Shown here: positions 24,990 to 30,834 of the stretch, one piece after another
How positions within the stretch are numbered: position 1 is the first letter of the stretch
Layout: each line of letters starts with the position of its first letter
Virus record (IMG/VR): IMGVR_UViG_3300027123_000122
Coordinates: 1 to 47,445 of that record
Source: a virus
Length of the DNA stretch: 47,445 nucleotides
Direction: 5' to 3' (one strand)
The notes under the pieces: model-generated
Databases searched by the model: none
Seen by the model: only the letters and a program-made list of their open reading frames with translations
Told to the model about the DNA's origin: nothing
Position numbers and translations under genes: made by a program

Positions 24990-26537
24990 TCAAGAACCTA
25001 TTGGTTGAGTAGGAGCAATAATGGGGTCTGCTGCTGTGCTCTTTGCAATTTTTGTAGCAATATTATTCGCTGCCTGTAAGTGGTCATTAGTTCGTTTTTG
25101 TTGTGCTAACATTAACATTTGTTGCGATGCAAAAACACTACTTAAAATTCCTTTTGTTAACTCTGCGTTAGCTGCCATATATTCATTTGTTATGAATTGT
25201 CCTCCTGTTTTAGGCGGTTTTATTTCAATAGGTTTATCTTCTTTTTCTTTATTGAAATAAACGAAAGCCGCGATTGCGGCAGCAGCTATTCCAATAATAC
25301 CAACTAATAAAAGTAAAGGGCTTGCCATAACAGCGGTAAATACCGTCGAAAATGTTGCAGCTAATGTAGTTGTAATTGATGTAAATACACTAGTTAATCC
25401 AGAAAAAAATGCTCCTTTTGCACTAGAACTAAATGTAAGAACTGCTCCCAAAAATAAACCAACAGCTATAGAAAACATTCTAAATGTAGAAGATATAGTA
25501 TTTATAGAAGCAGCTAGATCATCTACTGACCCCCTCAAACTTATAGTTAATTCTTTTTGTATATCATTTTGAGATTTTAAACTATCGGCTGCTGCTTTAA
25601 CATCCATAGGCTCCGCAGGAGTTAATTTAGCTATTGCTGCAAAAACTGCACCTTCTTCTCCGTATATTCTTTTCGCTTGAGCCATAGCCTCTGCTCGGTT
25701 CATTGACGCAAAGCCAGATATTTGTTGCTCAAAAAAAGAACCTGCTTGTGCAGCTATGGCTTCCATACCCTCAGCAGTGGGTTTTTCTAAGAATGAGAAT
25801 ACATCTGCGCTGATACCCAAAGTGGCAAATTTACCAAGTTTTCCACCTTCTGTAACCATGCTCATAGCTTTAGTAAAAAGATCCGCGCTACCAACACCAT
25901 ATTTTTGAACTAAAGAAATTATGGATTGATTAACATCTTCTGTGATGCCCATTAGATTAAAATCTAATAACCTGCTAGATAATGATTTTAATGAATCAAC
26001 TAGATATTCTGTAGATATGCCATATTCATTTCTAGATTTTTCTAATGCTTTGGCTAAACTATCCATACCATCTACATTTAATCCACCCAAAATTTGAGAT
26101 TTTTTCTGTAAATCAAATAAAGCCAAACTATTTTCCCCAGCAGCCCTCATTTGCATACCAAGTTCAAAAGTATCTTTTGATACTTTAAACATTCCAGTTC
26201 TCAATGCGTCTATGGATGTTTTTAATGCTATTGTTGGCCCATAATCACTAACTCCTTGGGAAACTTGTTGATCTTGTTTTAGCGTAGACATCGTATTATT
26301 GAATGCTAACGCTTGTTTATCTATGGAGGCAGCAAACTCTCGTCTTCCTTGAACCATTTGATTCATTTCCCCCATGAATGCGAATGGTTGAGTTATATTA
26401 CTGGATATGCCAAGAATATTACCAACTTGTTTTAAGAATGCATTACTAACACTAGCCCCTTCTGATTTGGATCTCTCATCATCGCGCTTATTCATTTCCT
26501 CCAGAACTTTTAAAAGATCATCTAATGTTGCCGCCAC
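24990..26537 (-). CDS. Tape-measure-like protein
   Basis: A 515-residue protein, mostly helical and Ala/Ser/Lys/Met-rich, with two strong hydrophobic stretches near 355-430 (MFSIAVGLFLGAVLTFSS and LLLLVGIIGIAAAAIAAFVY) typical of phage tape measure proteins, which span the tail lumen and enter the cell membrane. It precedes the tube-like, gp53-like and hub genes as T4 gp29 precedes 48 and 54. Its length is near that of gp29 (590 residues), so a tail a little shorter than T4's is inferred. The start is GTG (26535-26537), supported by the strong site GAGGAGGAG inside the end of the upstream gene (overlap 20 nt). The gp26-like chaperone is 3.5 kb upstream. Confidence 0.65.
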   Translation of the reverse strand: MAATLDDLLKVLEEMNKRDDERSKSEGASVSNAFLKQVGNILGISSNITQPFAFMGEMNQMVQGRREFAASIDKQALAFNNTMSTLKQDQQVSQGVSDYGPTIALKTSIDALRTGMFKVSKDTFELGMQMRAAGENSLALFDLQKKSQILGGLNVDGMDSLAKALEKSRNEYGISTEYLVDSLKSLSSRLLDFNLMGITEDVNQSIISLVQKYGVGSADLFTKAMSMVTEGGKLGKFATLGISADVFSFLEKPTAEGMEAIAAQAGSFFEQQISGFASMNRAEAMAQAKRIYGEEGAVFAAIAKLTPAEPMDVKAAADSLKSQNDIQKELTISLRGSVDDLAASINTISSTFRMFSIAVGLFLGAVLTFSSSAKGAFFSGLTSVFTSITTTLAATFSTVFTAVMASPLLLLVGIIGIAAAAIAAFVYFNKEKEDKPIEIKPPKTGGQFITNEYMAANAELTKGILSSVFASQQMLMLAQQKRTNDHLQAANNIATKIAKSTAADPIIAPTQPIGS

Positions 26538-26976
26538 TATTCTCCTCCTCTGTTTTTAGTCTAGATTTATTAATTTCTATTTTTTGCATGTTTCTAATTG
26601 ATAATAAATTATATGTTCTAAAACTTTTACTGCCTAAAATAGATTTAAGACTTTTTTGAATAATATAATAATTTGCAATCCCCTTATCTTTATATATACT
26701 TCTTAAAATAATCCTTAAAACTGACTCAGAACTATCATCTAGTTTAAAACAGGTTATTAGCATATTATTTCTTCCACTTAAAAACATGCCATTACCCCGT
26801 CCAGTAGAAACAACCAATACATTAACTACTTCCGCATTATAACCAAAACGCAAAACATCTCCGGGGGAGATAAATCCTGAACTTTTAGGGATTAGTGAAA
26901 AAAAACTAGAATCCTCATGATTAATTTTTTTTAAAAAATTATCTTTTTCATACTTAAAATTAGGATTCTTATTCAT
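26518..26976 (-). CDS. Unknown small tail-operon protein
   Basis: A 152-residue basic, Lys/Asn/Ser-rich protein of no recognised family. Its middle has beta-rich sequence (SPGDVLRFGYNAEVVNVLVV, then NNMLITCFKLDD) followed by helices. It overlaps the tape-measure gene by 20 nt, and its C-terminal codons form that gene's ribosome-binding site. Its own start lies only 11 bp from the divergent gene at 26988, and no convincing ribosome-binding site is seen. Position corresponds loosely to T4 gene 28 (a hub assembly protein), but there is no sequence support for that. Confidence 0.6.
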   Translation of the reverse strand: MNKNPNFKYEKDNFLKKINHEDSSFFSLIPKSSGFISPGDVLRFGYNAEVVNVLVVSTGRGNGMFLSGRNNMLITCFKLDDSSESVLRIILRSIYKDKGIANYYIIQKSLKSILGSKSFRTYNLLSIRNMQKIEINKSRLKTEEENSGGNIR

Positions 26977-28035: not shown

Positions 28036-29041
28036 TGATATCTCCTCATACATTAAAGACTACCTGACCACCAAATTCTCAGGAAAATTTAAGTTGTCTA
28101 GTAATGGTAGGGAGTTGATTATGAACTCTCCCGTAGACCCTATGGATAGAAGACAGCATTTTTCTATCAATCTAGATACAGGACTATGGCAAGACTTCAG
28201 GAAGGGTGAGAAGGGTAACTTCTATGCCCTCTATAGTTATTTAGAGGGGGTGACCTATAAGCAAGCATATCATCAGATCCAATTAAGATCAATAGGCAAA
28301 GATCCCGCGCCCGTACACGCGCAGGAGGCCCCATCTACATCAATACAGGAGGAGATGCAAAACTTCACAGAAGTACGATGGGACAAGAACCCAGAGTCCA
28401 ATTTGGAGAGTGCAGCCTACCTGTACTTGCACGACCGCAAAATATTCGAAACTGACTATCCTTTCTTTGTGGCTACTGCTGGCAGATTCTATGGGCGAGT
28501 GATTCTACCCTTCTGGCGCAACGATGACTTGGTTTATTTCCAAGCTAGATCTTTGATTGGGCAGAAGCCTAAGTACTTGAATCCCGGAACAGAATATGGT
28601 GTTAAAAGCAAGAACTTCCTCTATCCATTCAATCTATCAGAAGATTATGTGGTAGTATGTGAGGGGCCAACAGATGCCATGTCCCTACAGATGCAGGGTG
28701 TAAACGCTACAGCCACACTAGGTTGCAGCCTTAGCCCTGTCCAATCAAGGCTACTCGCAGGATTCCAAGGTCGAGTCATCGTAGGATATGATAACGATGA
28801 AGCCGGGAAAGCAGGACTAAAAAGGCTACATGAGACTATCAATAGCCAGCGATTTGCCAAGATCAGCTACTGTTTCCCAAGCAAGAAGTACAAGGACTGG
28901 AACGAAATGCATGTAGATAACATTAACCTCAGACAGTATGTAAAAGAGAATACCCATGAGTATGACCCACAGGTATTCGAAATTCAGAATCAATTACAAA
29001 ATATTAGTTCAGTATCAAGTTTAGATAGTCACTATAGATAA
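28028..29041 (+). CDS. TOPRIM DNA primase
   Basis: 337 residues from the ATG at 28028. A GTG 30 nt upstream in frame is possible but has no better ribosome-binding site, and it would lengthen the overlap with the nuclease gene. A TOPRIM domain is clear at about 200-275: VVVCEGPTDAMSL (Glu212, Asp216) and VIVGYDNDEAGKAGL (Asp255, Asp257), the metal-binding pattern of DnaG-type and T4 gp61-type primases. The N-terminal 85 residues (SPVDPMDRRQHFSIN, then WQDFRKGEKGNFYAL) resemble a CHC2 zinc-binding module, but its cysteines and histidine set is missing. Predicted role: primer synthesis for lagging-strand replication with a separate helicase. The 3' end overlaps the opposite-strand virion gene by 38 bp. 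Confidence 0.8.
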   Translation: MNIDISSYIKDYLTTKFSGKFKLSSNGRELIMNSPVDPMDRRQHFSINLDTGLWQDFRKGEKGNFYALYSYLEGVTYKQAYHQIQLRSIGKDPAPVHAQEAPSTSIQEEMQNFTEVRWDKNPESNLESAAYLYLHDRKIFETDYPFFVATAGRFYGRVILPFWRNDDLVYFQARSLIGQKPKYLNPGTEYGVKSKNFLYPFNLSEDYVVVCEGPTDAMSLQMQGVNATATLGCSLSPVQSRLLAGFQGRVIVGYDNDEAGKAGLKRLHETINSQRFAKISYCFPSKKYKDWNEMHVDNINLRQYVKENTHEYDPQVFEIQNQLQNISSVSSLDSHYR

Positions 29042-29933
29042 CTTGGTTTAATAATGAGTATTTAACTTGGATTTGATAAGCACCTGTTAGTGGGCCGTAG
29101 GTTCCATTAAGAACTGATGGGTGAGTATACAAGTTGTTTGTATCCCAGTTGTAAATTATGGTATTATCTGCGGTTACATCAGTTGTAGCCGAGGTATTAC
29201 TAAAAGAGCTAACTACGACTCTGGCTGGCAAAGTATAATCATCATTTAGTTTTACTATTTGTATAGCAGGTTCTACTATTACGGAATCTTTAAATATATT
29301 CTTAATTGAAGAATCTATATCCTTGTTTCCCAAATTGAATTCTGATGAAATCATCAAATCAATTTTTGATCCTAGTTTTACATATTTGTTTCTAAGTTTA
29401 TTTGTTGCAGTAAGAAGTAAAGGCTCAGTAATAGAAAATAGAGTGTCATCATTTAATTTGAATTCGTTGATATAAACAGCAAACTTAGAGTTTGCAGCCA
29501 TTCGGACTGTCCAAACATCTATGTATGTTGTTGCTGCACTAGCCTGATTAGGGACTACAGCACCATTGAAAACGCCAGACACACCGTTAATACCATCTAG
29601 CACTACAGCATATTGACCTGTTGCCAACTTGTAGATGCCTGATGCGCCTATCGTATAGTTTGATGTATTGAATGCTGCATTTGAAGGCAACATAGACGAA
29701 TTAGCAAAATTCATCAAAATTACAGAACTTGCTAATGTTGGGTCTATTAAGTTATCTGAATTTAAAACAGTACTAGGACTAGTGTTACTAGTTAGTTTAA
29801 ATATACTAACTGAACTAATTTGATATGGATCCTGATACTGCCCATCATTTACAAAGAATGAACGGAGAGCAACTCTTTGTATTACTCCGGGACGATTATG
29901 CCTCTCTACAACCGATATATTATTAATCTGCAT
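29004..29933 (-). CDS. Virion structural protein of unknown role
   Basis: A 309-residue protein with Asn/Ser/Thr-rich beta sequence typical of particle proteins and no catalytic or membrane feature. The start ATG shares a base with the stop of the -1 frame segment (TAATG), which implies translational coupling to the gp26-like chaperone's long form. The central region (YIDVWTVRMAANSKFAVYIN) suggests a beta sandwich. The 3' end overlaps the primase gene by 38 bp on the other strand. In T4 the gene after 26-51 is the hub gene 27; this one is shorter than the usual hub protein and I do not see hub motifs. Confidence 0.6.
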   Translation of the reverse strand: MQINNISVVERHNRPGVIQRVALRSFFVNDGQYQDPYQISSVSIFKLTSNTSPSTVLNSDNLIDPTLASSVILMNFANSSMLPSNAAFNTSNYTIGASGIYKLATGQYAVVLDGINGVSGVFNGAVVPNQASAATTYIDVWTVRMAANSKFAVYINEFKLNDDTLFSITEPLLLTATNKLRNKYVKLGSKIDLMISSEFNLGNKDIDSSIKNIFKDSVIVEPAIQIVKLNDDYTLPARVVVSSFSNTSATTDVTADNTIIYNWDTNNLYTHPSVLNGTYGPLTGAYQIQVKYSLLNQVIYSDYLNLILN

Positions 29934-30112
29934 TAAACTTTCATCCTTCGATCTATTTCCTCCATCTCTTTTTTATAAATTTGAAGGAATAGTACACGCT
30001 CTCTGAGCGTGGTAGATTTAACATCTTGGTAGGTCATTCCTACCTTGCTTATTAATATATAGGCTTGCCCTAATAGAGTATCTAAATCTAAATTCTCTAT
30101 TAGTTCACGGTA
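29933..30112 (-). CDS. -1 frame extension of the gp26-like protein (gp51-position segment)
   Basis: An open segment of 59 codons in the -1 frame relative to the gp26-like gene, starting within its last codons. It begins YRELIENLDLDTLLGQAY and is helical and coiled-coil-like (LRERVLFLQIYKKEMEEIDR). In the first 25 codons there is no ATG, GTG or TTG, so independent initiation would lose the first half of the segment. The bases at its 5' end are a seven-T slippery run followed by a hairpin, so the expected product is a 300-residue fusion (241 + 59). By position it corresponds to T4 gp51, a hub-assembly protein encoded after gp26. Alternative: a separate short protein from the first internal ATG. 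Confidence 0.65.
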   Translation of the reverse strand, partial: YRELIENLDLDTLLGQAYILISKVGMTYQDVKSTTLRERVLFLQIYKKEMEEIDRRMKV

Positions 30113-30118
30113 AAAAAA
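30070..30118 (-). promoter_or_regulatory. Programmed -1 frameshift signal: slippery T run plus hairpin
   Basis: On the minus strand, GAT TTT TTT ACC GTG AAC TAA ends the gp26-like gene. The T_TTT_TTT heptamer (30118-30112) is followed by an 8-nt spacer (30111-30104), then CTAATAGAG (30103-30095), a 16-nt loop, and CTCTATTAG (30078-30070), an exact 9-bp inverted complement. The zero-frame stop lies in the spacer/stem. Slippery run, spacing and stem agree with known -1 frameshift elements. The stem is AT-rich (three G-C pairs), so its strength is moderate. Confidence 0.65.
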
Positions 30119-30834
30119 TCAGGTCCAATAGGTAAACCAATTATATTAGGCTGGCTGCACTTATCACAATCAAATCTTACGGTGGTTTGAACCCCAAAAT
30201 CCTTTAAACTGACTAAATCACTAATTGTGTGAATATCCTTTAAAGGCATTCTTTTATCTTCCAATACTTTAGCAATTACGACCGGATCCTCTAAACCATT
30301 AATGGAAATTACGAACCTCCAAAGGTTATCAAATAACCCAGTATCGGTATTTAAGTATTTTTCATCACTAATAGTAGGTATTCTAATTTTAAGTTTTATC
30401 TTAGTTACTGGAAGCTCAATTTCAGTTTGTTCTTGAATACTGTCATCTAGCTCTTGCACAGGAAGATCTGACAAACTAAAAGTTAGTCTATTCTCTCCAG
30501 AACATTTCATACAATTTACGGTAGCACTATAGCTATCACCGTATGAAATTTCTCTTAATTTTAGAATTAAATACAGTTTATCTACGAGTAATAGATCCTG
30601 TATATTTACCCCCTGAATACAACGACTTAATAAAACATTAATAACATCTGCTTTATTTTTTTTAGCCATAACCATAGATTTTTCATCTTCAAAGGTCATT
30701 GGTCTTATTTTAATTTTAGCACCATTATAGAACTTACTTTTAGATGGCACATCTACAAAAGTTTCTACTTCTTGAGGTAAGTTAGAAAAAATTTCGTCTA
30801 AATTAAATTGCTTTCCTTCGGGAATATTATTCAT
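30100..30834 (-). CDS. gp26-like baseplate hub/chaperone protein
   Basis: A 244-residue protein resembling the T4_baseplate family (T4 gp26 and relatives): an N-terminal segment VDVPSKSKFYNGAKIKIRPM followed by MTFEDEKSM, then helices with LLSRCIQGVNIQDLLLVDKL. Two CxxC pairs (Cys108/111 in CMKCSGE and Cys223/226 in CDKCSQPN) could form one zinc ribbon. The adjacent divergent uvsW gene repeats the uvsW-to-26 neighbourhood of T4. It likely acts in baseplate-hub assembly with the tape measure protein. The last codons contain the slippery run, so the protein probably exists in two forms. No clear ribosome-binding site; the 34-bp gap to uvsW is AT-rich. Confidence 0.7.
   Translation of the reverse strand: MNNIPEGKQFNLDEIFSNLPQEVETFVDVPSKSKFYNGAKIKIRPMTFEDEKSMVMAKKNKADVINVLLSRCIQGVNIQDLLLVDKLYLILKLREISYGDSYSATVNCMKCSGENRLTFSLSDLPVQELDDSIQEQTEIELPVTKIKLKIRIPTISDEKYLNTDTGLFDNLWRFVISINGLEDPVVIAKVLEDKRMPLKDIHTISDLVSLKDFGVQTTVRFDCDKCSQPNIIGLPIGPDFFTVN

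Follow-up and report, generated by a model that had tools for sequence, protein, structure and literature searches.

In the viral DNA analysed here (IMG/VR record IMGVR_UViG_3300027123_000122, 47,445 nt in full, referred to as the window), a tail assembly chaperone (TAC) is very probably made in two forms through a -1 frameshift, a 244-aa TAC-N and a 300-aa TAC-NC, as judged from the sequences of the window and its relatives. The gene for the gp26-like short form (PF12322, T4_baseplate; phrog_150) lies on the minus strand, like all features of this locus, at 30100..30834, and its 3' end reads GGA CCT GA[T TTT TTT] ACC GTG AAC TAA. The codons GA[T TTT TTT] ACC thus place the slippery heptamer T_TTT_TTT (30112..30118) in the right register, X_XXY_YYZ. 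An 8-nt spacer, ACCGTGAA, separates it from the 5' arm (CTAATAGAG, 30095..30103) of a 9-bp stem, whose 3' arm (CTCTATTAG, 30070..30078), identified by folding and a synonymous-recoding test, follows after a 16-nt loop. The sequence-only reading of this DNA had described the T run and the stem, with its loop and spacing, in the same way, but had put the zero-frame stop between them; the TAA (30100..30102) falls within the 5' arm. The -1 frame runs open from 30112 to 29936 (59 codons) and stops at a TAA at 29935..29933, so that the extension with its stop, TAC-C, spans 29933..30112 and carries a phrog_634-like domain. Its first ATG, GTG or TTG is codon 26, and its stop overlaps the ATG of the next gene (TAATG), a 309-aa gene at 29004..29933 with no match in Pfam or PHROG. 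The open frame without a start in its first 25 codons, its end at TAATG and the 300-residue fusion beside the 244-residue form had all been read correctly from the sequence. As a chance level, T_TTT_TT[T/C] occurred in frame five times in 13,964 codons of the minus-strand genes of the window. Elsewhere on this strand, slippery heptamers (T_TTT_TTA, A_AAA_AAA and T_TTT_TTT) lie in frame at several points close to the start of a 152-aa ORF (26518-26976), which overlaps the following ORF at 26537.

In the proposed mechanism, most ribosomes would stop at the TAA and release the gp26-like TAC-N, and a minority would slip by -1 on T_TTT_TTT to produce the gp51-like TAC-NC with its three-helix C-terminal domain. 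The hairpin 8 nt downstream probably helps the slip. By analogy with lambda, TAC-N may coat the tape measure protein and TAC-C may bring in the tail tube protein. The data show how the sequence is built, that it is conserved, that the extension is under coding selection and that the parts are homologous to T4 gp26 and gp51, and we infer the ribosomal slippage, its rate and this division of labour.

To compare the locus with its relatives, 80 related loci were collected from IMG/VR by a protein-pattern scan whose patterns exclude the T run. The relatives shared 37–76% protein identity with the window protein, which was less than 30% identical to proteins of cultured phages. T_TTT_TTT or T_TTT_TTC was found in register, one to six codons upstream of the zero-frame stop, in 80 of 80 relatives, and an open -1 extension of 53–63 codons was present in all 79 with sufficient downstream sequence (L004 ends too early and was left out). 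Together with 80 cyanophage-type loci, the heptamer was in register in all 161 sequences (81 from the window family). Loss of the site by silent substitutions, which the sequence-only reading had named as an argument against frameshifting, was seen in none of them. Among 51 representatives, each less than 90% identical to the others, T was without exception the last base of the codon preceding the run and of the first Phe codon, while elsewhere in the same genes 24% of Phe codons were TTC, 25% of Asp codons GAC and 34% of Asn codons AAC. Only two of 26 two-fold-degenerate alignment columns were fixed for T, and these were the two codons forming the T run. Beyond the zero-frame stop, purifying selection acts on the extension (median dN/dS 0.17), and stops interrupted both of the remaining frames in 50 of 50 sequences. 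The sequences of the family are related, so that these counts do not represent independent events.

The short form of the window was assigned to the gp26 family by Pfam PF12322 (E = 1.7e-21, above the gathering score) and PHROG phrog_150 (E = 1.4e-25), and its family alignment (A3, 50 sequences) matched the T4 gp26 set in hhalign with 95% probability (E = 2.2e-8). All hhalign E-values given here refer to single comparisons. The extension is a three-helix domain homologous to the C-terminus of T4 gp51; the pLDDT of the AlphaFold2 models was 90.6 for the short form and 91.3 for the extension. The window extension alone gave no hit in the PHROG search, and phrog_634 was matched by the extensions of 39 of 50 family members (best E = 3.5e-5). 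A single-sequence hhalign comparison of the extension alignment (A2) with T4 gp51 was weak, so alignments were used instead. The window-family extensions matched those of the single-gene T4-like phages (cyanophages and KVP40) with 90% probability (E = 1.4e-6) and the gp51 set with 76%, and the extensions of the single-gene phages matched gp51 columns 200-252 with 96% (E = 3.4e-9). Over their shared length, the T4 gp26 and gp51 profiles aligned with 99.5% probability (E = 3.4e-22); phrog_150 coverage was 14-235 for T4 gp26 and 13-280 for T4 gp51, and only gp51 added the phrog_634 domain. By these profiles, T4 gp26 and gp51 are paralogues, with gp51 consisting of a gp26-like domain and an in-frame C-terminal domain. 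By these matches, gp26 is the counterpart of the short form and gp51 that of the long form. The idea that the extension is unrelated to gp51, a protein of 249 aa in T4, was rejected, because gp51 comprises a gp26-like part plus the extension domain. The likeness to lambda G/GT and the match of the extra domain to gp51, both raised by the sequence-only reading, are supported. That reading had also treated gp26 and gp51 as separate genes in T4, which holds for the two genes and is refined in that the extension corresponds to the C-terminal domain of gp51 only.

Foldseek of the short-form model against the PDB had the HK97 TAC (2ob9) as its top match, which was weak and not significant (E = 0.64, probability 0.57), and Foldseek of the extension against the PDB gave no match; sequence searches of the PDB found no phage protein. 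Four extensions weakly matched PF20546 (DUF6760), a small family of unknown function (best E = 0.006).

Among cultured T4-like phages, P-SSM2, S-PM2, Syn9, HTVC008M, KVP40, phiM12 and Cr30 each had a single gene whose heptamer is in register and whose -1 extension matches phrog_634, and RaK2 had the heptamer and a -1 extension with no phrog_634 match. All 80 cyanophage-type loci carried T_TTT_TTC in register. Aeh1 is said to lack gp51 (PMC3037559); its locus (L211) reads GAT TTT TTC GAC TGA, with the gp51 C-terminal domain in the -1 frame. Two genes were found in T4, RB49, RB43 and four further T4-type contigs, three of which appear from their sequences to be Acinetobacter-type. The gp26 of these two-gene phages kept a similar C-terminus with a broken T run, e.g. 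GAG TTC TTT GAG in T4. In HTVC008M, phiM12, SP-15 and LIS04, the gene has the tail tube gene on one side and the tape measure gene on the other, the position of G/GT; in the window, HMM searches recognised no gene for either the tube or the tape measure. In Salmonella phage Vi01, the extension (NC_015296 47528-47668) has no annotation, and the heptamer before it is A_ATT_TTC in place of T_TTT_TTC. In the cyanophage-type loci (L112-L191), the heptamer is also preceded at ~8 nt by GAGGGA or GAAGGG, which is similar to the internal Shine-Dalgarno stimulator in dnaX but may only reflect the conserved LEGL peptide.

The extension could instead be a separate small gene, translated without fusion by re-initiation or from its own start after the zero-frame stop. 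A separate gp51 gene is indeed annotated in P-SSM2, S-PM2, KVP40, phiM12 and Cr30, with its start a few bases from the stop, and in 58 of the 80 cyanophage-type loci an ATG lies 5 nt downstream of the beginning of the stop codon. An independent gene with its own start, which the sequence-only reading had held to speak against a frameshift, thus has a partial counterpart in most cyanophages and none in the window family. No ATG, GTG or TTG occurs before codon 22–26 of the extension in the window, L015, L016 and many other relatives, and no start codon of the extension is conserved across the family, which makes a separate gene unlikely there. Moreover, the heptamer is kept even in the cyanophages that have the ATG, and re-initiation needs none; the domain is also fused in frame in T4 gp51. 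We therefore consider a separate gene very improbable, and a frameshift product remains our preferred explanation.

The downstream stem was less uniform than the heptamer. In the window, it had a folding energy of -15.6 kcal/mol (z = -4.3 against dinucleotide shuffles, with 0 of 200 shuffles as good) and, compared with synonymous recodings of its -1 frame, a z of -3.64. Of the 48 representatives with a stem, 27 had their best uninterrupted stem starting 8–9 nt past the heptamer, with arm sequences and 3' partners differing between relatives. In 16 of 50 sequences, stability exceeded that of synonymous recodings (p < 0.05), where two to three such sequences were expected, and several relatives showed none, so that no universal stem was found across the window family. 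A stimulatory stem thus recurs in the family without being obligatory. The alignment with relatives that the sequence-only reading had proposed thus bore out the heptamer and the -1 frame, while the stem proved not to be universal.

The long form might also come from transcriptional rather than ribosomal slippage, for which the window offers a homopolymer T run. However, the run is broken by a C at the seventh base in 55 of 81 window-family members and 80 of 80 cyanophage-type loci, and a run broken there is short for polymerase slippage. The position and codon register of the heptamer, with the stem at the expected spacing, also fit a tandem ribosomal slip, and we regard transcriptional slippage as very improbable, slightly more so than a separate gene. 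A sequencing error or decayed gene, conceivable for a single-contig assembly of unknown read depth, is refuted by the comparative data, since 80 relatives and finished phage genomes share the break at this position and the extension has the low dN/dS given above, and its probability is negligible.

Other arrangements of the extension were seen in some further phages. In SP-15, Listeria LIS04, Streptococcus GXN1, LR756508 and Streptomyces pSt2308, it is open in the +1 (or -2) frame (loci L009 4600-4880, L012 4600-4900, L007 4650-4990, L013 and L010). SP-15, LIS04 and GXN1 share an xCC CGA TT[C/T] motif near the shift, and in SP-15 a 40-aa ORF at the extension is annotated as a separate gene. 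Tentatively, and with more doubt than confidence, recoding in the gp26/gp51 family may differ by lineage, the window lineage combining a -1 shift with a drifting downstream stem, T4 having two genes, and SP-15-like Gram-positive phages shifting by +1 or -2 close to xCC CGA; this last solution may be undescribed.

In 2022, Vladimirov and colleagues reportedly identified gene 26 of T4 as its TAC-N gene and gene 51 as a separate TAC-NC gene, and described frameshifting in further T4-like groups. A 2025 paper (PMC12846349) treats poly-T signals for frameshifting in T4-like TAC-N genes as known, with reference to Vladimirov, Gautam and Davidson (Virology 2022;566:9-15). The scheme is therefore already published, and the suggestion of the sequence-only reading that such a fusion could be an undescribed form was dropped, as cultured T4-like phages carry the same cassette. 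A short/long tail chaperone frameshift has been reported as widely conserved except in T4 (PMC5009743), and gp26 and gp51 have been listed as hub assembly chaperones (PMC3004832). Our results extend the published T4-like chaperone frameshift to a large lineage of uncultured phages, without exception among the loci sampled; in many of them the long form could not be explained by an alternative start. Database names such as 'baseplate hub' and 'baseplate hub assembly catalyst', and extensions left unannotated, need correcting.

The window locus resembles lambda gpG/gpGT in its predicted short and long forms, the latter with an extra C-terminal domain, arising by a -1 slip close to where the first gene ends. 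There is no detectable sequence homology between the two, and the window gene is the larger and has CxxC pairs. The lambda slip takes place on an A/G-rich site. T4 gp26 and gp51 are homologous to the short and long forms, respectively, but are encoded by two divergently transcribed paralogous genes without frameshifting, and the run is broken in gp26. The TAC locus of Vandenendeviridae and Andersonviridae (PMC12846349), which are different phage families from that of the window, is similar in that it shifts by -1 at a T-rich site (GTTTTT) where TAC-N ends. The T4-like TACs of Vladimirov et al. (2022), cited in PMC12846349, are among the closest known systems, sharing with the window the gene family, the poly-T -1 site and the TAC-N/TAC-NC output, whereas the window belongs to an uncultured lineage and is without an alternative start codon.
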